From: Diabrotica undecimpunctata
Taxonomy: Eukaryota > Arthropoda > Insecta > Coleoptera > Chrysomelidae
DNA length: 64,000 nt
Direction: 5' to 3'
NCBI RefSeq assembly: GCF_040954645.1
Contig: NC_092806.1
Span: 133,578,476 to 133,642,475 of the forward strand
Made by a program: the position numbers and the translations under genes. The notes beneath the pieces are model-generated. The model was given only the letters and a program-made list of their open reading frames with translations. It was not told where the DNA came from and made no database searches. This document shows positions 22,570-56,673 of this stretch, piece after piece (positions within the stretch are counted from its first letter, which is position 1; each line of letters starts with the position of its first letter).

Positions 22570-23905
22570 ATTGTAAATCACATTCTAATAATATGTGTTA
22601 GATCGCCTATTTTACCACAAGTACAATTGGGAGTATTTGATAAGCCGATTCCATGCATGTAAGATGGCGTAAGAGCATGATTTTCTCGCAGCCGATTAAA
22701 GGTCTTTATAAAATGTCGATTAGATTCTGTGTAGAACGATCTTCTTGAGGGTATCCTAGTGTTACAATGATACAAGTTTACGCTAGTCTTACATTCTCTG
22801 TAATGTAAATGCCAATTATTTTTAAGTTTTTGTCTACTAACGGTGTCAATATCTGTCGCTGGAATTAAATTTCTGTTTACTTTTTCTCCAAGCATAGACG
22901 CTGATTTAGCCAAATTGTCAACGACGTCATTGCCTTTTATTCCTGAATGGCCCTTGATCCATGTAATTATTAAATTTAATCCTAATTGTATAGTTTCATA
23001 AAAAAATTTAAGAATTTTCAGTTCAATGTGGTTTATGTGTTTGACTGTTTGAATGTTGTTAATTCTGTCGACCACGCTTTTACTGTCAGTAAATATAACA
23101 CAGTTGCTAGTCGGATTCAGTACTACATATTGAAGAGCAAACATTATTGCCATCATTTTTGCTGTGTATAATGAGCATTTACTGAGTAAGCTATACTGGT
23201 GATGGTAATTTTTATTTTCATGGAACATTGCACAGCCCGTTCCATTTTCATCTTTTGACCTATCAGTAAAAATGTACTAATAATTTGTCCATTTTTCTTT
23301 AATAATTATATCAAACATATTTGGGAGTAAATATGAGTTTAAGTAACATATCATAACCTTTCTAGAAAATAGTGTTTTTGCCATTTCACCATAGTAGGGC
23401 GAAATTTGGCTTTTATAGAGAATGTCGTTATATTTCACCGTACTTAAAAAGCTTTCTACCAAAGGTATAGATATTTTAGTTCTCCAGTACGTATAGGTGA
23501 GGTCTAAAACTGATAGTTCATTAAGATCTTGAAGGTATTTACAATTTTTGGACATAATTCGGACTGTAAATTTGTCGCCAAGGAATTGGCGGCATAAATG
23601 CAATGGAGGTTCTACCACTTCATTTTCCATTATTTGAACTGGAGTGGATTTTAAATAACCTAGGCATAACCTCAGGTATATATTTTTTTGAACTTCAAGT
23701 TTGTTTAGATGTGTATTGGCCGCTGATCCAAATAAATGACAGTTATAGTCGAAAATCGGCCTGATCATGTTGCGGTAAAACATCAAAGCAATATTTGGGT
23801 CTGCTTCCAAATTTGTTTTACAGAAAGCTTATAAAATGTTTATTGAGTTTTCTGATTTTTTAACAATTTGATGAATGTGATCTTTCCATAACAATTTCCT
23901 GTCTG
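22570..23905 (-). pseudogene. Non-LTR retrotransposon C-terminal half with RNase H domain
   Basis: From the right: RKLLWKDHIHQI, NIALMFYRNMIRPIFDYNCH and VQKNIYLRLCLGYLKSTP (RT thumb/connection, 23277-23900). An RNase H domain follows at 22578-23228, with FTDRSKDENG just before it (first acidic residue), CSLYTAKMMAIMFAL (the position normally EL), VIFTDSKSVVDRI (Asp) and WIKGHSGIKGNDVVDNLAKSA (His and Asp). The tail has a Cys-rich CTCGKIGDLTHI. In the family RNase H removes the RNA template strand. The two open frames are long (177 and 216 codons) and separated by one in-frame stop at ~23278, so this copy is comparatively young. The catalytic RT palm is absent. Confidence 0.85.
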
Positions 23906-26157: not shown

Positions 26158-27601
26158 AGGTACCAACCTATAGATTATATAGCAGTACCAACAAGATAAA
26201 AAAACATGATAAGATCATCAAAAACGTACCCAGGTGCCGATGTTCCTACGGACCACAATCTGTTGGTATGCAGAATGGTCATGAGAGTAAAACGGCTCGA
26301 GAAAAGATCTAATTTAAACACAATTGATATTAAGAAACTCACTAACCCAAAAACCGAAATAAAAGTACGAGAACAACTAGGAAAGAAAATAAACGACATT
26401 AACGAGAACACGTCGGACATAATAGAGAGATGGGATAAATCGAGGAAAGCAATCCAAACAACATGCGCGACTCTATTAAAGCGTGACAGACGGAAGAAGA
26501 AAGAATGGATGTCTGATGAGATAATGGATATGATTGATGAAAGACGTAAATTCAAGAATAAAAATGAAAAAAAATACCAGCAGATCCACAAAATCATAAG
26601 AACGAAAATTCGAGAAGCCAAAGAAAAATGGTTTTCCAACGAATGCAGGGAAATAGAACAATACGAACGAAAATACGACAGTTACAATATGCACAAGTAA
26701 ATAAAATCAATGACAAACAAGAGGAAATTCAATAAGTCACCCAACAGCATAAAAGATGGCGATGGAAATCTTATCTCGGAGCCATCAACGATCTTAAAAA
26801 CATGGAAATCATACATAGAAAAATTATTTGCATCTGACAGGACTGATGATCACCTATATGGAGAAGGAGAAACAGGACCTTCAATCCTTAAATCGGAGAT
26901 AGAAGATGCCATTGCAGCACTAAAAAACAATAAGTCAGCAGGTCCGGACAATGTACCCTGCGAAATATTAAAGATCCTATGTAAATCAGACAAACAGTTC
27001 CTTGATAATCTAGTTGAACTTTTTAACAACATATATAATAGCGGCAAAATCCCGGAGAACTGGCTGCAGTCAACATTTATTACAATCCCGAAGAAACCAA
27101 ATGCCCAGATCTGTGATGACTACCGGCTTATAAGCTTGATTAATCATGTCACTAAAGCGTTCACTAAGATCATTCATAGAAGAATATATGATAAATGTGA
27201 GTCAAATATTGATAGATCGCAGTTTGGCTTTCGGAAAGCACTTGGAACTAGAGAAGCAAGTTTCGCTCTCCAGGTGCTTATACAGCGGTGTAGAGACGTT
27301 GATAAGGACGTGTATTTGTGCTTTGTGGATTTTAGAAAAGCATTTGACAATGTCAATCATGAACAATTGATAGATTCTCTGCGAAAGACCGGTATTGACT
27401 ACAAGGACATTCGAATTGTGGCAAACCTATACTAGGGTCAAACAGCAAGAGCAAAAATTGGCAACGAACTCACTAAAAGTGTGCAGATCAAAAGAGGTGT
27501 CTGTCAGGATTGTATATTATCCCCACTCCTATTCAATATTTATTCCGAAGAAATATTTAATAAATGTATGGAAAATGCAAATGAGGGCATAAAAATAAAC
27601 G

Positions 27602-28182
27602 AACTTTGATCAGATAAAAGGCATATAACGAGCACAGTTTAATTAAATCTTGCCCAAGTACTTTCGATCCCTAGATCATCTTCAGGGGCATCTGAAATAA
27701 GCCAAGAAACGTTTTTTTATAACCAAAGAAATTGATTAACTTCGATAAAAACTCGAAGTTTATGGTTGAAAAAAGGTTTTTTATGTGATTAACGTTTATA
27801 GACTTACTTCGTCAATTGTGGCCTATCCGGCAAGAACAAGATGTCATAAACATATAAATGTACATTACACTACACTACAAAGTAATGTACATTTATATGT
27901 TTATGACATCTTGTTCTTGCCGGATAGGCCACAATTGACGAAGTAAGTCTATAAACGTTAATCACATAAAAAACCTTTTTTTCAACCATAAACTTCGAGT
28001 TTTTATCGAAGTTAATCAATTTCTTTGGTTATAAAAAAACGTTTCTTGGCTTATTTCAGATGCCCCTGAAGATGATCTAGGGATCGAAAGTACTTGGGCA
28101 AGATTTAATTAAACTGTGCTCGATATATGCCTTTTATCTGATCAAAGTTCATTTATTCGAGCATTCAACCTTATATTTATTT
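27602..28182. mobile_element. 581-bp palindromic element inside the RTE copy
   Basis: The left arm (27602-27868) and right arm (27882-28149) are reverse complements with only one substitution and one A-tract length difference over ~267 nt, separated by a 13-nt loop. A 33-nt tail (28150-28182) lies outside the palindrome on the right. The whole insert is flanked by a perfect 13-bp duplication, ATAAAAATAAACG (27589-27601 and 28183-28195), and interrupts the RTE reading frame exactly there. Each arm contains TGCCC, CTGAAGA, a GATC/GATC hairpin, GAAA and GGGCA in that order. This resembles a minimal hammerhead and the 3' ends of Penelope-like elements. No protein is encoded. Confidence 0.85.
28061..28100 (+). 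ncRNA. Hammerhead-like motif in the palindrome's right arm (mirrored in the left arm)
   Basis: The order is TGCCC, CTGAAGA (fits the CUGANGA core), bulged T, GATC-TAGG-GATC hairpin, GAAA, GTAC, TT, GGGCA. TGCCC and GGGCA could form stem I, and cleavage would fall after CUU. The bulge next to the core and the two-base-pair-or-less stem III make activity doubtful. Minimal stem III hammerheads are, however, described for Penelope-like elements. Confidence 0.35.
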
Positions 28183-29008
28183 ATAAAAATAAACGGCGAG
28201 TTAACGAACAATATAAGATATGCCGACGACACGGTGATCCTTGCCAGTACCATAGACGAATTACAGCAGGTAATGGAAAGATTTTATTCAGTTAGTGAGG
28301 AATACGGCCTGAGCCTCAACTTCAAGAAGACAAAGTGGATGCTGATAAGCAGGAAGCAACAGCCTGCTCGACAGTTACGGATAAGTAACATACTAATTGA
28401 CCATGTAGAATCTTATGTGTACCTTGGCACCAACGTAAATGCAAAATGGGAACAGGCCACAGAAATTAAGGCGAGAATAGAACGAGCTAGAGCAGCATTT
28501 AGCAATATGAAAAAGCTCCTCATAAGCAGGGATTTGTCTCTTCCCCTAAAACTACGTCTAGTTAAATGCTACATTTTTCCGATCTTGCTGTATTTTGTGG
28601 AGGCCTGGATGCTGACGGAGACGCTCACGAGAAAACTAGACGCATTCGAAATGTGGGTGTACCGACGCATTCTTCGTATATCCTGGACCGAACATGTCAC
28701 CAACACAGAGGTAATCCAAAGAATCGGAAAGGAGAAAGAAATCGTAAATACAATTAAACAAAGAAAGCTTGAATATCTAGGCCACATATTGAGACACGAT
28801 AAGTACCGTCTACTGCAATTGATTGTCCAGGGAAAAATAGACAGTAAGCGAGGGGCAGGCAGGAGAAGACACTCGTGGCTCCAAAATCTGAGGAAGTGGT
28901 TCGGGCTCACATCGGTCGAACTATTCAGAAGCGCCGCAAATAAGATCAGAATTGCCATGTTAATAGCCAACGTTGGCAACGGACAGGGCACTTGAAGAAG
29001 AAGAAGAA

Positions 29009-33300: not shown

Positions 33301-35840
33301 CACTTAACCCCCCAAGCAAACGACGGTTGTTTTGAGTAGTATGGACCTCTAACAAAAACCTGTATATTTCCTAAAGTCCATTTTTTGGACTTAATTAGTT
33401 ATTAACAAATTAATTTCAAAAAACGGAAATTTTTTTCTTTTTTCGTCTGCAAAAAGTGCTGCATTTGAAACAAATTTGAGAGTAATAAACTTATAAGTGA
33501 TATAAAAGCCTTCAAAATAGCATTTTTTTTAAATGTCTTATTTGCTGCTAGAAAGTTGCAAAATAGGTCATAAAAGGTAGATTCTAAAATAAAAAAAATA
33601 TTAAAATAAAAGCATTTAGAAAAGATGAAGAAAAACAATTTTAAATATTGCAAAATAATTTTGCTAAAACATGTCGATTTTTGGCTTATAAACAACAAGA
33701 ATAACTTTTTAACCATTGACTACAAGAAAATTATTTTTTTATATTTTAAAACCTGCATTTTTTCACAAATTAAAAAAAATTGTCCTACGACAATTTGGGA
33801 TAAATATGTTTTATTTTTATTATTTTTTATTTTTTTTTAAATTGATAGATTTGCTTATAATAATTAAGAGATCTTATTAGCATCATTTGAAAGAACATGC
33901 TTTAAAATTTTAATGTTTAAAAATCGAAAAACATTGTATTTTAATAAAATAGTTTACAAAGCGTCAAAATCTGGTCTTTAAAACCGGCGAGACTCGCGGA
34001 AGTAGTGGAGGGGGAAGAAGCTGATATTTGGATCTATGGTTCTTGTTTATGGATTTCGACGTTTCTTTTTTTAATTGGTTTGTAATTTTTGCGTATATTA
34101 CAAATATGTATTATTTAAAAAAAATAATTGTTAAATTAACCATCTAATTTGTTTAAAAATTTTTTTTTTCAGTTTTTATTTGTTTTTTTTTAGCATTTGA
34201 GGTAATTTTTACTATAAGACATAATTATTTCTGATTAATATATTTTTTAATAAACTTTTTTTATAGTAACTTATTTTTTAATTATCAATACTTATTTAAC
34301 AATTTTTAAGAAATTATAAAAAAATGTTTTTTGCTTTAAAATTACTTTTTTTTGTTAATTTGAGACAAAATATTCTAAGACAAAAGTTATTCTTGTGTTT
34401 TTTGCCTAGAATACTTACTTTAAACGTAAAATGCAAATTAAAAACTAAAAATGCAGAAAAAAGTCGATTTTAAGGTTTTTCTAGGCAATTTTTTAAAGTA
34501 CATCAAATTAAAAAAAAAAATTAAAAAGAGATAAGAGCTTGAATCAAGTAATGTAAAAATGCGCAATCCTATTGTAATTTTATATTGCAAAAGTCAGTTT
34601 AAAATATCCATACAACACATATACAATGGTTTCGGTATGAATATAGACTTGACAAATGCCTAAACTTTAACGTTCGAAACATATTGTTTATTTCGTACCC
34701 ACAAGCTGGGTTCTATTTTAATCAAAAAAATATGATTTTAAAATTTGCAGTAAAAGGTTTACCCAAAGTTTATCACCTTAACCTGATTGTTATAAACAAT
34801 GGAGTAAATTAGTTTTAAATAAAATATTTTTTTATTTGCTAAGAAATAAATAAATAAATAAACTGTTATATAAATAAATAATTAAAACAGAAAAATAACT
34901 TACAAAATACAGACATTAAATGAAACGTAAAAAGTTAAAAGTATATCTGCTAATAAAAGATAGTAAAACAAACATAAAAGATCGATGCTAAAATTCGATT
35001 TGTAACAATTCTCGAACTTCCATATTCATCATAAATGTCAAAAGTCATAAATGTCATCCCATCCAATTATTAACAATATAAAATCGTCTGTTTAGTAACG
35101 TCCGATATCATAATTAATTTAAATGTGAACATTAAATAAATTAAAAGTCCACTTAAAGTGTAAATTTCAGTTTTCTTCAAGTTCGAATTAATTGAAATAT
35201 GAAATTATATGTGTACGCCAAGTTTACAGAGAAAGAATTACAGAGCACATATTAAATTTGGCTTTTTACGAACTTTATGGCTTTTTTGACAAGTAATGAT
35301 CGTTATACAACATGTTAACTTTATCAATTTTATTAAAATCTATAAAAATAGTAAATAACTAATAAAATTAGTTTATTCAATTTTAAACATATTATTTAAA
35401 TAAAAAAAAAAGAAAACATCATATGAAGCTTCGCGATAGACTACAATACCGCCTACTTTACCACTTTTTTCTATGATTTTTTTAGTATCTTGATAAAATA
35501 TTTTTCGCTATTATAACCTGGTCAAAAAATCTCTAATTCTATTTGCATTTTTATTAATGTTTTACTGTTTATTGCGTGATGGTTTATTTGATAGTTAACT
35601 ATTCATAAAATTTTTAAATATTTTGAAGGAGACATTAAGTCTTTACATGCGGGTGGCCAACTCCCTAGGATCGGCCCGGATCATGAAAGTAGATTATGTG
35701 GACTGTCAATGTATATAAAAAAGAAAACACTATCAGAATTTAACCGTGACAGATACAAAGATTATTGTTACGTAGTATAAACAAGAGTAAGCACATAATA
35801 TAATTCATTTAGTATTTATTAACATTAAATCTTTGTATAT
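33301..35840. other. AT-rich non-coding region with weak inverted similarity
   Basis: Very AT-rich. Around 33640-33760 and, inverted, 34380-34500 there are similar blocks (TCGATTTTTGGC / AAAGTCGATTTTAAGG and AACAAGAATAACTTTT / AAAAGTTATTCTTGTG). A GC-richer island lies between them near 33985-34015. This could be an old inverted-repeat element of ~1.1 kb but the match is too weak to call firmly. An (AAAT)n patch lies at ~34845-34865. No gene is seen. Confidence 0.3.
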
Positions 35841-36160
35841 ACAGTGTGTCCTTAAAGTATGGAATAAATTCGATATTTCCTAAATGAAAAGCCTTTTTAA
35901 AAAAATTTAAAACACGTCGATTTTTAAATTTAATGTTCTACATTTTACAATAAAATTTCATTATACAAGGTGATACACATTACAGAGATGACGTCATCGG
36001 CCCTTTTTTTAAATGTAACACCCTGTATTTAGGACAATTTTAGATCGATACAAATGAGCCGATTCCAAAAAAGTATGATACTGGGGGTCTAACGGATATA
36101 ATTTGAAGGATATGCGCTTAGAAAATTAATTTTTATTGATTTATAATATAATTCTATAAT

Positions 36161-36797
36161 AATCTTGACTGTCTTTAATTTTATTTTTATTCGGATCTAC
36201 TCTGTATGAGTACAAGAAACCAATTCGCTAACGATTTCTGCTTAGCTGAGGAGACATGTCGTGGAATGTAAATTTTAGATTCCCCATGTCTCTATTAACA
36301 TCTTTATCAGCGTCTGTTATACCTTGCATTTATAGAAGGTTCAGATTAAGGCAGTTATCTGAATTGTGTTTCGAAAGTATTTTACGGATTTAATATTAGA
36401 TGTCGCTATTGCGTCCGTTTCGAAGCCATTTTATCGTCGCTTCACAAAGACAGGAAAAGATTAATTTTCACGTTGAGAAAGCCTATGAATAACTGTTCTG
36501 ATGAGCTTTATTAAAGCGAAATACGTATCAACAGATACATAGACTATTTTTGCGTGAAAGGAAATCTTGACTGTCTTTAATTTTATTTTTATTCGGATCT
36601 ACTCTGTATGAGTACAAGAAACCAATTCGCTAACGATTTCTGCTTAGCTGAGGAGACATGTCGTGGAATGCAAATTTTAGATTCCCCATGTCTCTATTAA
36701 CATCTTTATCAGCGTCTGTTATACCTTGCATTTATAGAAGGTTCAGATTAAGGCAGTTATCTGAATTGTGTTTCGAAAGTATTTTACGGATTTAATA
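36161..36797 (+). mobile_element. Retrozyme-like direct repeat with hammerhead ribozyme (~1.6 units of 402 bp)
   Basis: A 235-bp block at 36161-36395 recurs at 36563-36797 with a single substitution seen by eye. The 167-bp spacer between them contains a complete type I hammerhead core, so the structure is one 402-bp monomer followed by a partial second one. There is no open frame of note. Tandem copies of a few hundred base pairs with type I hammerheads are the hallmark of retrozymes and of the terminal repeats of Penelope-like elements. The near identity suggests recent insertion into the surrounding inverted-repeat element. The target duplication is ambiguous because both edges are ATAATA-like. 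Confidence 0.8.
36493..36534 (+). ncRNA. Type I hammerhead ribozyme (minimal stem III)
   Basis: Stem I strands CTGTT (36493-36497) and AACAG (36530-36534) pair perfectly. The core CTGATGA (36498-36504) is followed by stem II GCTTT-ATT-AAAGC (36505-36517) and GAAA (36518-36521). Stem III is the self-complementary TACGTA (36522-36527), and TC follows, giving cleavage after C36529. All conserved core positions are present. Stem III would be only two pairs as a monomer, but could be longer in a dimer. Self-cleavage in cis is strongly predicted by form but not tested. Confidence 0.85.
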
Positions 36798-37096
36798 ATA
36801 AATAATTTATTTTTTAAGCACATATCTTTCAAATTATATCCATTAAAACCGGGTATTATACTTTTTTGAAATCAGCTCATTTTTATCGATATTAAAATGT
36901 CCTAAAATACAGGGTGTTACATTAAAAAAAAAAGGCCCGATGGCGTCATCACTGTAATGTGTATTACCTTGTATAATGAAATTTTATTGTGAAATGTAGA
37001 ACATTAAATTTAAAAATCGACGTGTTTTAGATTTTTTTAAAAAGGCTTTTCATTTAGGAAATATCGAATTTATTCCATACTTTACGGACACACTGT

Positions 37097-38089
37097 ATTT
37101 ACTTAATCTTTGCCAAGCAGGAACTTATTTTTATGAGCCAATCTTCTTATAAAATTGTGTAATTAATCTGACAACCTTAAAATTGTCAATGTCGGTCGTG
37201 TACGTACTGGTTCTTGTAATAACTTTTTTAGTAGTCGTACTAAAATATAAAAGGTGTCATTAATGATCAATTTTCTGTTATAAAAATCATGCTATAAAAT
37301 ATTGTTCAAGATCTGCGGCCGGCGTTTCATTATCCGGTTCTTTAACCAGTTTGGCTAATCATTGTTTTAAATTTTCGAATGCAGAAATGGAATTGTTCTG
37401 GTTAATTACTCTTCCAGGGTCGTAAAAGACTAGATATTTAAGAATATGTTCTTTATAATATATACAAACAAAAGTATTTTCTGTCTTAATTTTTATTTAA
37501 CAATCCGCTGGACGTATAGTTTTACTTAGTACAAAATTTATGTTCGTTTATTACCCAGACGCTTTTCTACGACATCCTACACCAGTTTATTTGAAATAAA
37601 AGAACCTGCTCAGTATATTCTTTGCTTCGCTATGTTTAGCCAATGCCTTGTTTCACATTGGTGGGGATAGTCTGTGATATTCCTCATCCCTGAACGGATG
37701 TTTGATATAACATTTGATTTGATAAGCATACTACATCTCTGAATTTAGCCTACAAATAGACTAAAAGTTAATAGGTTTGATTACATAAGAAAACATAGAA
37801 GCTAGGAGAGAACTGTCAGCAGAAAAGAGATGCCTGAAAACCATTTGACATTACAGCAAAAGAAGAAAATATAATTCTCTAACTCTAGCCAGAAAATACG
37901 TCGGTTTTCTAGACCTCCCTTATCTATTACTAATTCCTCATAAGATGTTCCCAATTTTCGTTTTTTTCAACTTAACATTCTGTACAGAACTTCAGAATTC
38001 ACCACTCGATTAATCTATGAGATGCGCAGTATTGATCTGTACCATCCCATACCTCGTAAAATCGAGATTGTGTAGCTGATATTTTGTTG
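37097..38089. other. No recognisable gene
   Basis: Moderately AT-rich DNA. Parts may be the decayed continuation of the hAT-like pseudogene to the right, but I could not align them to known blocks with confidence. Confidence 0.35.
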
Positions 38090-39639: not shown

Positions 39640-41098
39640 CGGATTTATTACGGCTGTCGCCGCTTCTCCGCCCCCAATTTCCATCTTTTTCTGTCATATG
39701 CAGTTGCCTCTTCTAAGTCTCTTGCCGCCATTGCTTCATCAATATCGTTGCGCCAACTTCTCCGTGGTCGTCCTCTCTTTCTTCTTTCAGGAGGGATCCA
39801 ATCCAGTACTCTCCTAGGCCATCTGTACTCTGGCATTCTTTTAACATGTCCGAACCAGATTAATTGTTTTCTTTCTATGTCATCATTGATATTTCTCTCC
39901 ATTTTCATTTCGTTTCTTATTTGTTCGTTTCTAACTCTCTCCAGTTTCGATCTACCGCAGCTTCGTCTCAGATAATCCATTTCTGTCGTCATAAGTTTGT
40001 TTCTATTAGCTTTGGTGACGTTCCATACTTCCGAACCGTAAAGTGTAATACTTTGGACTATACTACCGTAAATGTGTTTTTTGGTTTCTCGTCGAATTGT
40101 TTTTTGCCAAAGAAGAGAGTTTAAGGCACGGGTCGCTGCTCTGCCCTTGTTTATTCTTTCCCTGGTTTCATCTGCGCTATTTCCCTTCTTGTTGAAAATG
40201 ACCCCCAAATATTTGCAGGATTGCACGCCTTTGATTTTGTCGTCTTCCAAGACTAGGTCACATATTTGATCTGTTCCCACTGAGAGATATTCACATTTTG
40301 TCATATTCATGTTTAGACCTGCCACCTCATATTCATCTTGCAGTTTTCTTACCATATAGCTAAGAGTGTAGCTGTCTTCGGCAATTACTACCTGATCATC
40401 CGCAAAGAAAAGTGTATATAGCTTGTTTTCTTCCACCGCTATTCCCATGTTTCTACATTTTTTTACCCATTTCACTAAGGATCTGTCCAAATAGATTTTA
40501 AATAAGGTGGGTGACAGACAGCAGCCTTGTCTTAGTCCTTTTGTTGTTTGAAAAGGAGAGGTGATTTCTTGTCCCATTTTAATTCTTGCAAAGTTTTGTT
40601 CGTAATATTTTTGAGTGGCGTTAATAAGAATTGGGTTTATTTTCAAGTTACCCATTTCTATCCATAGTTGGGAGATCGGTACACTGTCATATGCTTTTTC
40701 CAAATCTATTAAAGCTATATGAGTTTCTCTATTTCTCTGCACTCATTTTTCCATTGCAATTTTTAATATGAAGATATTATCCATAGTGGAGCGTCCGGCC
40801 CTAAATCCCGCTTGTTCTTCGGGTTGTTTGTCTTTAATATCATTTTCTATCAGGTTTCGTAGTACTTTTGAGTATAGTCGGCCTATAGTAGCAATCACTG
40901 CGATCCCTCTATAGTTTTTAGGATCCATCTTTGTGTCTTTCTTGTGTATTGGAGAGATATACGATTGTCTCCATTCTTCTGGAACTTCTTCTCCGTTTAA
41001 GCATCTTTCGAATAATTTTCGGATCATCTCAAACAGTTTTGATGATCCATACCTAATCAACTCTGTATGTATTCCGCCTGGGCCTGGAGATTTTTTTA
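39640..41098 (-). pseudogene. RTE-like non-LTR retrotransposon, nearly open reverse-transcriptase region
   Basis: The copy starts 5'-truncated at the GPGGIHTELIR block (41.09 kb), then WRQSYISPIHKKDTKMDPKN, YRGIAVIATIGRLYSKVL and EEQAGFRAGRSTMDNIF (41060-40743). After one in-frame TGA come IALIDLEKAYDSVP, GLRQGCCLSPTLFKIYL, LYTLFFADDQVVIAEDSY (intact catalytic FADD), YLGVIFNKKGN, YGSEVW, IWFGHVKRMPEYRWPRR, RRKRGRPRRSWRNDIDEA and KRWKLGAEKRRQ (40742-39648). Apart from the single stop the ~470-codon region is open, so this is the best-preserved RT in the window. It is the same lineage as the 19.0 kb copy. The endonuclease is missing. A low-complexity TTAATTTAATT tract directly adjoins the 5' break. 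Confidence 0.9.
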
Positions 41099-53016: not shown

Positions 53017-54610
53017 TTCTTTCTTATTCAGTACCTTCTCCGGTCCGGATGTTGGCGATCATCAAGGCTATCATGGTTTTGTTGACTGCTCTGCGAAACA
53101 GCTCCGCGGAGGTCATCCCAAACCATTGTCGGAGGTTTTTTAACCACAGAGATACGACAGCGTCCCTGTCCCCTCCTGCCAAATAATTTACCCTGCATAA
53201 CGAGTTGAAGAATTTTATATTTTTCTTCATTCGGCATCACGTGCCCGAGATACTCAAGGTAGAACCTCAACATTGGTAACATGGTCCACATACGATATTT
53301 TTCGTATCGTCCTGTAGATCCATATCTCGAGGGCTGCAATCCGCTTTTCTGTGGCTTGTATCAGTATTCAGGCTTCAACTCCATATAGTAACACTGGAAT
53401 AATGTCACTATCCGCATCTTTATTCCCAAACTGATATCACTGCAGCACAGCAAGAATCTTAACTTGATAAATGTAGACCGTGCCATTTCAATTCTGGATC
53501 AAATCTCTTGAGCGTAGTCCCATTGTAATTGAGGGTAGTTCCGAGGCAAGTGAATCTGTCGACTCTCTGTATCTATACGCTACCTGCCATTAGGGCCCCG
53601 GGATCTAAATTTTGCACGGCTGGTAACCATGAATTTAGTTTTCTTAATATTAAGGTCTAGTCCGTATGTTACGCTCACAGTTCTCACTCAGTCTAGTAAG
53701 GCTTGTAGATTATTTAGGCTGGTTGCTAATAACACAGTGTCATCGGCGTAGCGGATATTATTGATGTATTCACCGTTCACTCGGAGTCCCATCTCAAGGT
53801 TTGTGAGTTCTTCAGTAAAAATTTCCTCAGAGTATATATTGGAAAGAGTCGGCGAGAGCACACAGCCTTGCCTTACTCCTCGCATGATCTTCACTTGGTC
53901 GGACAGCTGGTCTTCGACCTTGAATTGAGCACGCTGGTTCCAGTATAAATTCATGATGATCCGAATATCCTTCTCATTCAATCCTACTCTTTGTAGGACG
54001 GCCAACATCTTCTGGTGCTGACAACCGTCAAATGCCTTGGCGTAGTCAATACAACAAATATAGACATCATAACTGACATCGCGGCATCTCTGAAGTAGGA
54101 TTTGTAAGGTGAAAATTGCTTCACGTGTACCCATGGAATTGCGGAATACAAATTGCATTTCACCGATATTTTCTTCGCATTTCTTGTAAATTCTGATATG
54201 TATGATTTTAAGAAAAATCTTAAGTGCATGACTCATAAGGCTGATAGTTCGGAAATCTTCGCACGTTTTCGCAGATCGTTTTTTTCGTAGTGTTTGAATC
54301 GTATATGGCGTTACACAGTTTAGTTAACTTCTTTGTGCTCACTTCACTCATCATCTTAATAAGTTCAACGGGTATTTTATCCGGACCCGTGACCTTACCA
54401 TTCTTAGACTGTTTTACAGCTGTTTTCACCTCGGTTTATAGTATTGACGGCCTGTCATGTAATTTACTTCTGGAAGTTCGATGTACATTTTCCAGGTCAC
54501 CAACTTCTCTTTAACTGTCGTCGCCAGGGTTCCGTCTTTGTTTATGAAAGGTGTGTGTTTCTCCTCTTGTATTGACCAGTGGCTTCTCGAATCATTCTCT
54601 GGATATTTCA
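53017..54610 (-). mobile_element. RTE-type non-LTR retrotransposon inserted in the Tc1-like copy
   Basis: The insert is bounded by the 7-bp duplication AGATCTC (53010-53016 and 54611-54617). From the right it encodes the linker/finger region (KVTGPDKIPVELIKMMSEV), then FRNSMGTREAIFTLQILLQR, ICCIDYAKAFDGCQHQKML, MRGVRQGCVLSPTLSNIYSE, INNIRYADDTVLLATS (intact YADD), YLEYLGHVMPNEEKYKILQL and the C-terminal FRRAVNKTMIALMIANI. It is 5'-truncated and has several frameshifts, chiefly in 53340-53690. It is the same lineage as the copies at 26-29 kb and 55.2-55.9 kb. Confidence 0.9.
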
Positions 54611-54835
54611 AGATCTCAATATCATAAAACATGCTTGAGGCATACTACAAAGAAGGCTTACAGATCACGTACGCCCTTTGCAGCCCCTTCAGCAACTTCA
54701 AGAACTGTTATCATTGTTATGAAGAAAAATTGCTCAGGAATTTCTTGATAATTTAATAGATAGTGTGCTAGGTAGAAGTTAAGCAATAATTGATGACAAT
54801 GCTGGATATGCGTTTTAGTGTAGCGTGTTTGGACA
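54611..54835 (+). pseudogene. Tc1-like transposase pseudogene, C-terminal part beyond the RTE
   Basis: The translation resumes DLNIIKHA (catalytic Glu replaced by Lys in DLNxIE), GILQRRLTDHVRPLQPLQQL, QELLSLL and AQEFLDNLIDSVLGRS. These match the end of Tc1-type enzymes and join logically to the part left of the RTE insertion. Confidence 0.8.
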
Positions 54836-54974
54836 CAATCTCTAATAATGCAAAATTTACTTTTTATTTTTTCTGAATAATTATTCCATTTTATATATGT
54901 TTTTTGGAGGGAATCATAGTTTTTGTAAATAATTATAAAATATGTTTAATTTAAAAAATAATAATAATTAAATT

Positions 54975-56673
54975 TACTCAAGAAACAAAACCCAATTTTC
55001 AATGCCATCATCAGACCAGACTACTTTCCGAGTCAATGGAAAATTTCACCGATTATCCTGACACCAAAACCTAGAAAAAAACCAAAAGATCCAAAATCTT
55101 ATAAACCTATAAGTTTGCTGCCGATTCTATCAAAGGTATTTGAAAAGCTTCTATTGATAAGATTTATTCAAATCTTAGAAAAAACTTAACTTATTCTTGA
55201 CCACCAATTCGGCTTCAGGTTAAAGCATGGGTCAATGCAAGGCCTACTTTATAAGATGAAAAAATAATTGCCATATCCTTTCTTTCCGCTTTTAAAATCC
55301 TACCTATCAGATGGACACTTCCCCGTAAAGCAGCACGATGAATACACTCAGCTTCTTCTTTAAGTTCCATCTTCTTTCGAAGGTTGGAAGTCATCATGGC
55401 TATGCGGACTCTGTTGACTGCCGCTCTAAAATGTTCTGCACTACTGCATTCAAACCATTCCCTCAAGTTCTCAAGCCACGATATTTTGCCTCTTCCCACA
55501 TTTCGCTTTCCTTGGATTTTGCCTTGCATAATAAGTTGTAATAATCCGTATTTTTGCCCTCTCATCACATGTCCTAAGTACTCAAGTTTTCGTCTTTTGA
55601 TAGTTAATATTATTTCCGCCTCATTTCCTATCCTTCTAGTTACTTCCACGTTTGACATTCTTTGAATCCATGATATTCGTAGGATTCTTCTGTAACACCA
55701 AAATTCAAAGGCGGCCAACTTATTCAGATGGACTTGTTTTAGTGTCCATGCTTCCAAGCCATAAAGAAGAGTGGATAACACGTAACATCGAAGCATTCTC
55801 AGGCGTAGTTCTAACCTTATATCCCGACAACAAAGAAACTTTTTAAGTTTAATGAATGGTGCACGTGCTATTTCAGCTGGTGGAGTACTCAGCTCCACCC
55901 TATCAAAGCAGGTGTTTTACAAGAACGTGTACTAGGACCTATTTTATTTTTGATGTTAACTGCAAAACTCTCATACAGCAGTAACACAGAAGTTGCTACT
56001 ATTGCAGACGACATTGCAATCCTGACATTGGATTCTAGTCCCACAAACGCATCAGAAAATTTACAAAAAACCTAAATAAAATACAAACTTGGCTAAGAAA
56101 TGGCGAATTAGATTGACTTAGACTTAATTAAGATTAACTCAACACATGTAATCTTCACAATGAAACGAGGTGAATGCAATTCAGTTACACTTAATGTAAG
56201 TATCCATCTTGACAAACGTCTAACGTAGCAGAAGCACATCTTTAACAAAAGAAAACAACTGACCATTGAATTTAGGCATATGTACTCAAAACTCTAAATT
56301 AACATGCTTACATTAACATTGTATAGCTGAACTGCTTATATACAAGCTGATTCTCAAGCCCATACAGACATATAATTTAGCTATAGGGCACCACTAGCAG
56401 TTCTAATCTTGTAATTTTTCAACGTTTCCAAAACAAAGTGTTAACGTCTATAGGATATGCTTCATGCTATGTTACATCCTTCTCTATAAAAAAGATTTGG
56501 AAATGCGTTCGGTAAAAGAAGTTGTAACAAGTTACAGTGTTAAATATAGTGAACGGATAAAAGTGCATCCCAATGCACTCACGAAGCGATTATTGGATGA
56601 CAATAATGAAGTGCGTAGGCTGAAACATTTTAAACAAAATAATCTATCAAACAGATTTAATGTTCAACTATAA
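54975..56673 (+). pseudogene. Jockey-clade reverse-transcriptase pseudogene interrupted by an RTE copy
   Basis: The left part (54975-55235): FNAIIRPDYFPSQWKISPII, LTPKPRKKPKDPKSYKPISL, LPILSKVFEKLLLIRF and DHQFGFRLKHGSMQ. The right part (55895-56673): HPIKAGVLQERVLGPILFLM, TEVATIADDIAILTLD (ADD catalytic motif), HVIFTMKRGECNSVTLN, a decayed thumb, and the C-terminus KDLEMRSVKEVVTSYSVKYS, RIKVHPNALTKRLLDDNNEV and RLKHFKQNNLSNRF, open for 69 codons. About 110 residues of the palm before the VLQ block are missing at the RTE junction, so a deletion accompanied or followed that insertion. Confidence 0.85.
55240..55895 (-). pseudogene. RTE-type non-LTR retrotransposon 3' fragment
   Basis: An open frame of 227 codons contains the thumb and tail: IKLKKFLCCRDIRLELRLRM, CYVLSTLLYGLEAWTL, FEFWCYRRILRISWIQRMSN, RRKLEYLGHVMRGQKYGLLQ, RGKISWLENLREWFECSSAE and FRAAVNRVRIAMMTSNLRKK. 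It is one of the better-preserved RTE tails, in antisense to the surrounding jockey copy. The copy begins just after the RT catalytic region, so it is 5'-truncated. Confidence 0.9.

Follow-up and report, generated by a model that had tools for sequence, protein, structure and literature searches.

Two-armed retrozyme insertions with two start sites in the genome of Diabrotica undecimpunctata

What is the 402-bp direct repeat that lies inside a long-TIR element of the beetle Diabrotica undecimpunctata, and how did it get there? The earlier note on this window (the whole 64,000-nt stretch of DNA that was analysed) had proposed a non-autonomous, retrozyme-like insertion, recently active, that had landed in a DNA transposon. 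We find that positions 36161-36797 are a metazoan retrozyme, recently amplified in D. undecimpunctata. The retrozyme type, the recent activity and the DNA-transposon landing site of that reading are all supported here; what it missed is the anatomy of the insertions, since the two-armed form, the two fixed ends, the 12-bp duplications and a second family can be seen only with other loci at hand.

The window copy, its ribozyme and its host

The features of the window copy are as follows.

36161-36797, plus strand: retrozyme insertion, 1.6 units of the 402-bp repeat, one-armed and B-ended
36161-36562, plus strand: repeat unit 1 (period 402)
36563-36797, plus strand: partial repeat unit 2
36181-36188, plus strand: A start region (unit positions 21-28), the arm's outer end in other loci and internal in the window copy
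36483-36542, plus strand: type I hammerhead ribozyme with all conserved positions, predicted cut after 36529
36784-36797, plus strand: B end of the window copy, where the match stops at unit position 235 (B in 19 other loci, 222-233)
35835-37102: host long-TIR element, with outer arms of 176 nt that are 95% complementary, and additional inner arms
35835-36160, plus strand: left arm of the host long-TIR derivative, putatively Tc1/mariner-like
36798-37102, plus strand: right arm of the host transposon derivative

The 402-bp period is confirmed by copies that start at 36161 and 36563. Over 235 bp they carry the single difference already noticed, at position 109; when the comparison is stretched to 241 bp, positions 236 and 239 differ as well. 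The complete type I hammerhead core claimed for this repeat is also there, with every conserved position found. Stem I pairs CTGTT with AACAG and, distally, CTATG with CATAG; stem II pairs GCTTT with AAAGC; and stem III consists of 3 bp within TACGTA. Because the distal part of stem I comes after an internal loop, we extended the ribozyme to 36483-36542. The exact 37-nt core occurs 744 times genome-wide (371 copies on the plus strand and 373 on the minus strand), against none for the reversed pattern used as a control, which excludes a chance origin. The same 744 cores support the reading as a retrozyme-like, non-autonomous element and rule out a simple local duplication.

Comparison of the window hammerhead with two other hammerheads from the genome revealed changes on both sides in 10 of the 14 pairs of stems I and II, with a non-standard pair in 1 of 42 cells of the alignment, in which one gap had been shifted by hand. 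In the covariance-model check suggested in the earlier note, the window ribozyme gave no gathering hit in Rfam, Hammerhead_1 (RF00163) included. Its only match was a weak one to Hammerhead_3 (17.8 bits, E 1.4), presumably owing to the shortness of its stem III (three pairs). A ribozyme from the second family, described below, scored above the Hammerhead_1 cut-off (42 bits versus 34). Judging from its sequence, the window hammerhead is probably an active ribozyme. The window copy should not by itself yield a unit-length circle, since it is one-armed and has a single ribozyme.

The 402-bp family is young. Among 184 full units in the fetched loci, a count that takes in loci set aside below and includes a few units twice, 67 are identical to the consensus and 175 have the exact ribozyme core; mean identity to the consensus is 99.7%, in line with the recent activity proposed earlier.

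Like the metazoan non-LTR retrozymes, as described in the available text of Cervera and de la Pena 2020 (PMC7229834), the element has a type I hammerhead in tandem repeats of 150-450 bp and a low GC content (34.6% in the window's 402-bp repeat, below the 50% bound), and it is non-coding, no ORF of at least 130 aa among the window's ORFs overlapping 36161-36797. Target duplications longer than 4 bp, another trait of these retrozymes, are found at other loci and not at the window copy. Plant LTR retrozymes, as far as the available text of PMC7761336 describes them, are likewise non-autonomous and form hammerhead RNA circles, the circle being an assumption for the beetle family; they differ in their type III ribozyme, 4-bp duplications, LTR, PBS and PPT, against a type I core and 12-bp duplications here.

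The long-TIR element around the repeat is confirmed, at 35835-37102. Its left arm gave 40 matches; four were fetched, and all show a TIR of ~315-330 bp followed by a common inner sequence. That the retrozyme landed in a DNA transposon is supported by relatives with transposase-like sequence beside the TIR, with a weak Pfam score: one translated relative reads like a decayed transposase, and DDE_3 was matched below threshold (E 0.0088) in L050. In a host-element relative we read by eye WPARSPDLNPLDYFMW, which we take to be linked to a Tc1/mariner-like DDE transposase. The host of the window copy is thus putatively Tc1/mariner-like, an assignment that rests mainly on motifs read by eye. Elsewhere in the window, LINE-like reverse transcriptase/RNase H fragments were read by eye at 22578-23810, 26710-28995, 39648-40742 and 53688-55898.

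Anatomy of the insertions in two families

For the 402-bp family, 39 pieces (L009-L047) were fetched; they were picked from the 150 matches listed for the window's piece by how well they matched it, and are not a random sample. We set aside L031 and L046 (one composite locus), L034 and L035 (a tandemly duplicated cluster) and L047 (which overlaps L020), and analysed the remaining 34 together with the window. In 24 of these 35 loci the insertion has two arms, a minus-strand array followed by a plus-strand array, so oriented that the RNA 3' direction faces outward at both ends. The outer ends fall at two places in the unit, A at about position 29 and B at about position 235 in the BLAST matches. 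The first copied base, located in 19 loci (L023, L028, L037, L040 and L042 left out), lies at unit 21-28 for A (median 26) and at 222-233 for B (median 230).

Of the two-armed loci, 23 of 24 have one A and one B end, none has AA or BB, and the exception (L037) ends at unit 63 and at A; the 23 include L042, a weak case whose short match, ending at unit 217 and lacking a duplication, was scored as B. The 11 one-armed loci are divided into 8 that are A-ended and 3, including the window copy, that are B-ended.

The one-A-one-B rule is repeated in an older, diverged second family. A 386-bp repeat at C8:112368899, used as the query, gave at least 144 matches, and only two-armed loci were counted. 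Among the matches listed, 14 such loci were found, of which 12 combine an A' end with a B' end (~168 and ~371); the other 2 have one outer end elsewhere (46 and 111), and same-class pairs were again absent. The monomers of the two families differ in length and over much of their sequence, and the A-B spacing is 203 nt in the second family and 204 nt in the 402-bp family. Taking the 23 and the 12 together, 35 of 35 opposite ends give p = 3e-11 under an independent, equal-odds choice, a value that assumes independence of loci that are not strictly independent. In locus L054, a third, sequence-distinct type I hammerhead (1820-1884 on the plus strand, with a second copy on the minus strand) flanks a second-family retrozyme ribozyme on both sides in inverted orientation, as if the retrozyme had inserted within another hammerhead element.

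The two-armed insertions are bounded by target duplications. Exact duplications of 12-14 bp occur in 21 of the 24 two-armed loci of the 402-bp family (that of L023 being doubtful) versus 8 of 1190 mismatched left-right pairs. The strict search found a 12-bp duplication in 2 of 11 one-armed loci; when up to 30 nt of filler was allowed, exact shared 12-mers were present in 5 of 11 one-armed loci, 21 of 24 two-armed loci and 10 of 1190 controls. The window copy has no clear duplication, its best candidate with filler allowed having 2 mismatches. In the second family, ends were fetched for 10 of the 14 two-armed loci, and every one of these 10 has a 12-bp duplication when a single mismatch is tolerated, versus 1 of 90 mismatched pairs; if the match must be exact and the filler shorter, 12 bp is reached in 4 of 10.

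The targets have a common context as well. In the 10 loci of the 402-bp family with exactly 12 bp, oriented with B on the left and A on the right, it reads AAS-N12-NTT: A at -2 in 10 of 10, A at -3 in 9, G or C at -1 in 10, and T at both +2 and +3 in 10. Second-family loci have AA before the duplication in 9 of 10 and NTT after it in 8 of 10. This suggests that each strand is cut just ahead of an NTT trinucleotide. Of the two start sites, A may be the primary one, because it is the commoner end of one-armed copies and because, in the 402-bp family, the context is stricter on the A-priming strand; this strictness is not repeated in the second family, where G or C stands at -1 in 4 of 10.

Some loci have changed further by segmental amplification (L031, L034 and L035). 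In L034 and L035 (G000:C11:13008500-13038000), two-armed insertions recur with the same inner junction (unit 276/34) as a higher-order array, and the composite locus of L031 and L046 (G000:C5:112050500-112066000) has retrozyme blocks alternating with ~267-bp spacers.

Template and priming

The arrays, ends, duplications and target context observed in both families are probably the outcome of two-sided target-primed reverse transcription on a circular RNA template by the enzyme of a Penelope-like element (PLE). In such a mechanism, arrays would be transcribed and the hammerhead would free 402-nt units that become circular, as published work shows for retrozymes from other animals. The duplications, together with the AAS-N12-NTT context, suggest that an endonuclease would nick the two strands at N|NTT with a stagger of 12 bp and so leave 3' overhangs. 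Each 3' end would then start a cDNA on the RNA, and each of two dedicated start sites would serve one strand: A, which lies ~60 nt 3' of the ribozyme cut, and B, ~204 nt further on. The enzyme, most likely that of a PLE present in the genome, would circle the RNA several times from each side, and end joining of the two cDNAs at random points would give the divergent arrays. Failure of one primer would leave a one-armed copy, as in the window.

The inner ends of the arms are what such copying would be expected to leave. In the junction analysis, which covered all two-armed loci except L015 and L036 (22 of 24), they are uniform along the unit (KS p 0.87), and the 22 junctions comprise 11 overlaps of 1-16 bp, 1 abutting pair and 10 fillers of 1-119 bp. 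The junctions fit a model in which two cDNAs, still being extended along an endless template, are linked by end joining. Nor do the inner ends cluster at the ribozyme cut, 2 of 44 lying within 5 nt of it versus 1.2 expected.

Rare variants speak to the template itself. Locus-wide variants are found in both arms of L010 (278C), L019 (398G) and L023 (225T); the single array of L009, which exceeds 15 units, has 278C throughout; and no locus has arms fixed for different variants where both arms cover the position. This shows a single template sequence per insertion, which a circle and a linear multimer from a homogeneous array fit equally. Other variants occupy only 2-4 units of some arrays (e.g., L018, L022 and L031), pointing to changes during or after insertion, so that not every unit is an unchanged first copy.

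Two-sided priming on an uncut, linear multimeric transcript would account for the uniform variants just as a circle does, and the PLE protein of Anolis works with unprocessed RNA in vitro (PMC11167929, available text). We nevertheless regard this template as unlikely: an excess of inner ends at the ribozyme cut is lacking, and the array of L009 would require that all of its ribozymes stayed uncut, yet nearly all full units (175/184) retain the exact core. The arrays are also tandem and homogeneous, and the segmental amplification of L031, L034 and L035 is of the kind that a DNA-level process would produce, be it unequal exchange in a satellite, re-insertion of circular DNA or a foldback DNA transposon. 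We disfavor such processes as highly improbable in view of the 12-bp target duplications, the outer ends at two sites with a scatter of 8-12 nt, the inner ends at random positions, and the rare variants that the two inverted arms share.

Reverse transcription by a LINE, with the two-armed form as ordinary L1-type twin priming, must be weighed as well. L1 twin priming resembles the two-armed retrozyme in having two primers, an inverted 5' arm and the same arm orientation; it differs in using variable internal sites for its second priming and a linear poly(A) template, and is a minority outcome. LINE-like reverse transcriptase fragments are frequent in the window, as read by eye. Against this, the second site is fixed here: across both families, 35 of the 38 two-armed loci combine opposite classes and none combines two ends of one class. 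The context of the nicks is symmetric, too. A LINE origin is therefore rather improbable.

For the preferred reading, priming on a circle by a PLE enzyme, a more specific form can be imagined, and we consider the case for it evenly balanced: a dedicated two-primer, rolling-circle reverse transcription in which a dimeric PLE RNP sits on one circle, gives each nicked strand its own start site, the two being ~204 nt apart, and copies that circle from both sides. That A and B might sit in one RNA junction is a suggestion that folding models only partly support. In the 402-bp family, the two sites did not share a junction at 25, 30 or 37°C; positions 6-15 nt away passed the same-loop test, which shuffles passed in 1 of 150 and 0 of 150 cases. 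In the second family, A and B shared a loop at 37°C and not at 25 and 30°C.

Two further ideas on the start sites and the RNA were dropped. One was that A and B represent a single sequence, present in each half-unit of an ancestral dimer; local alignments between the halves, and between the regions around A and B, were no better than shuffles. Separate folds of the two families have 11 pairs in common, against a mean of 0.4 and a maximum of 7 in shuffles (n = 100), and none of the 11 is changed on both sides. RNAalifold on both families returned 62 forced pairs, 18 of them changed on both sides, from an alignment that we do not trust. An RNA structure common to both families was therefore not carried further.

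Penelope-like elements and what the insertions record

PLEs are at home in this genome, with at least 73 GIY-YIG matches and one locus that has both domains in one frame (RVT_1 just below the cut-off, GIY-YIG above it). The 402-bp element itself has no ORF with RT and GIY-YIG, its 402-nt unit being devoid of any ORF of at least 130 aa, and is therefore not a PLE. The PLE copies L055, L056 and L058 end in (TA)n with or without a ~30-nt tail: L056 has one tailed and one untailed end, the copy covered by L055 and L057 is tailed at both ends, and L058 has an untailed end. In another copy, L080, hammerhead-like sequence lies in both head-to-head inverted ends (~759-821 and ~998-1060) and leaves the standard core after CTGAGGA.

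The parallels with PLEs described elsewhere are close. According to the available text of PMC11167929, the PLE protein of Anolis (Poseidon) cuts and extends both strands in vitro and favors AT-rich DNA with ATT, its cDNA begins at two internal sites that bear no relation to the target, and the PLE's hammerhead is dispensable for insertion in vitro. The Penelope of Adineta has inverted, head-to-head pLTRs, 8-10 bp duplications and an optional 31-bp tail (PMC3846280, available text). The retrozyme resembles these elements in its head-to-head inverted ends, two start sites, short target duplications and AT-rich target; like the Anolis PLE it has a hammerhead, and it may share both-strand cutting and extension. 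It differs from them in its lack of an ORF, in start sites 204 nt apart instead of 30-40 nt, and in arms that are multi-unit arrays. Against a PLE helper, the best-seen PLE family of this genome terminates in (TA)n instead of showing the target context of the retrozyme, and its copy L055/L057, tailed at both ends, lacks the pairing of one tailed with one untailed end. Comparison of the fetched PLEs with the retrozyme gave short, mostly AT-rich matches only (best E 0.002), and one of these matches looked unrelated on inspection. PLEs as the helper are thus a strong analogy, not proof.

Retrozymes, and the proposal that Penelope elements mobilize them, are already published; what is new is the anatomy of the insertions. 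PLEs were put forward as the helper of metazoan non-LTR retrozymes by Cervera and de la Pena (PMC7229834), a proposal repeated in PMC8969392 and PMC11722881, as their available texts indicate; that of the Drosophila virilis paper (PMC12910113) adds nothing further. The same partial sources leave the mode of animal retrozyme movement open, and a 2020 review (PMC7761336) states that the animal repeats have no conserved motif from which the helper element could be deduced. Beyond what is described for metazoan retrozymes in the available text of PMC7229834, in whose main text the word "inverted" is absent, the beetle families have divergent two-armed arrays, two fixed start sites, 12-bp duplications and a target context. 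Within the parts of the open-licence PubMed Central literature available to us, we found no description of two-armed retrozyme arrays or of two fixed start sites. Our claim to novelty is about this anatomy. It may be narrowed by Craig et al., who in 2021 reportedly described short hammerhead-bearing relatives of PLEs that are non-autonomous.

In both families, the insertions preserve a pair of start sites, a 12-bp stagger, a target context and the rule of one A and one B end, which makes a direct biochemical test possible. This signature also supplies a model for the head-to-head arrangement seen in Penelope elements. If the dedicated two-primer, rolling-circle form of the mechanism is true, RNA circles would serve PLEs as natural substrates in trans, and the mechanism would account for the head-to-head termini of PLEs themselves.
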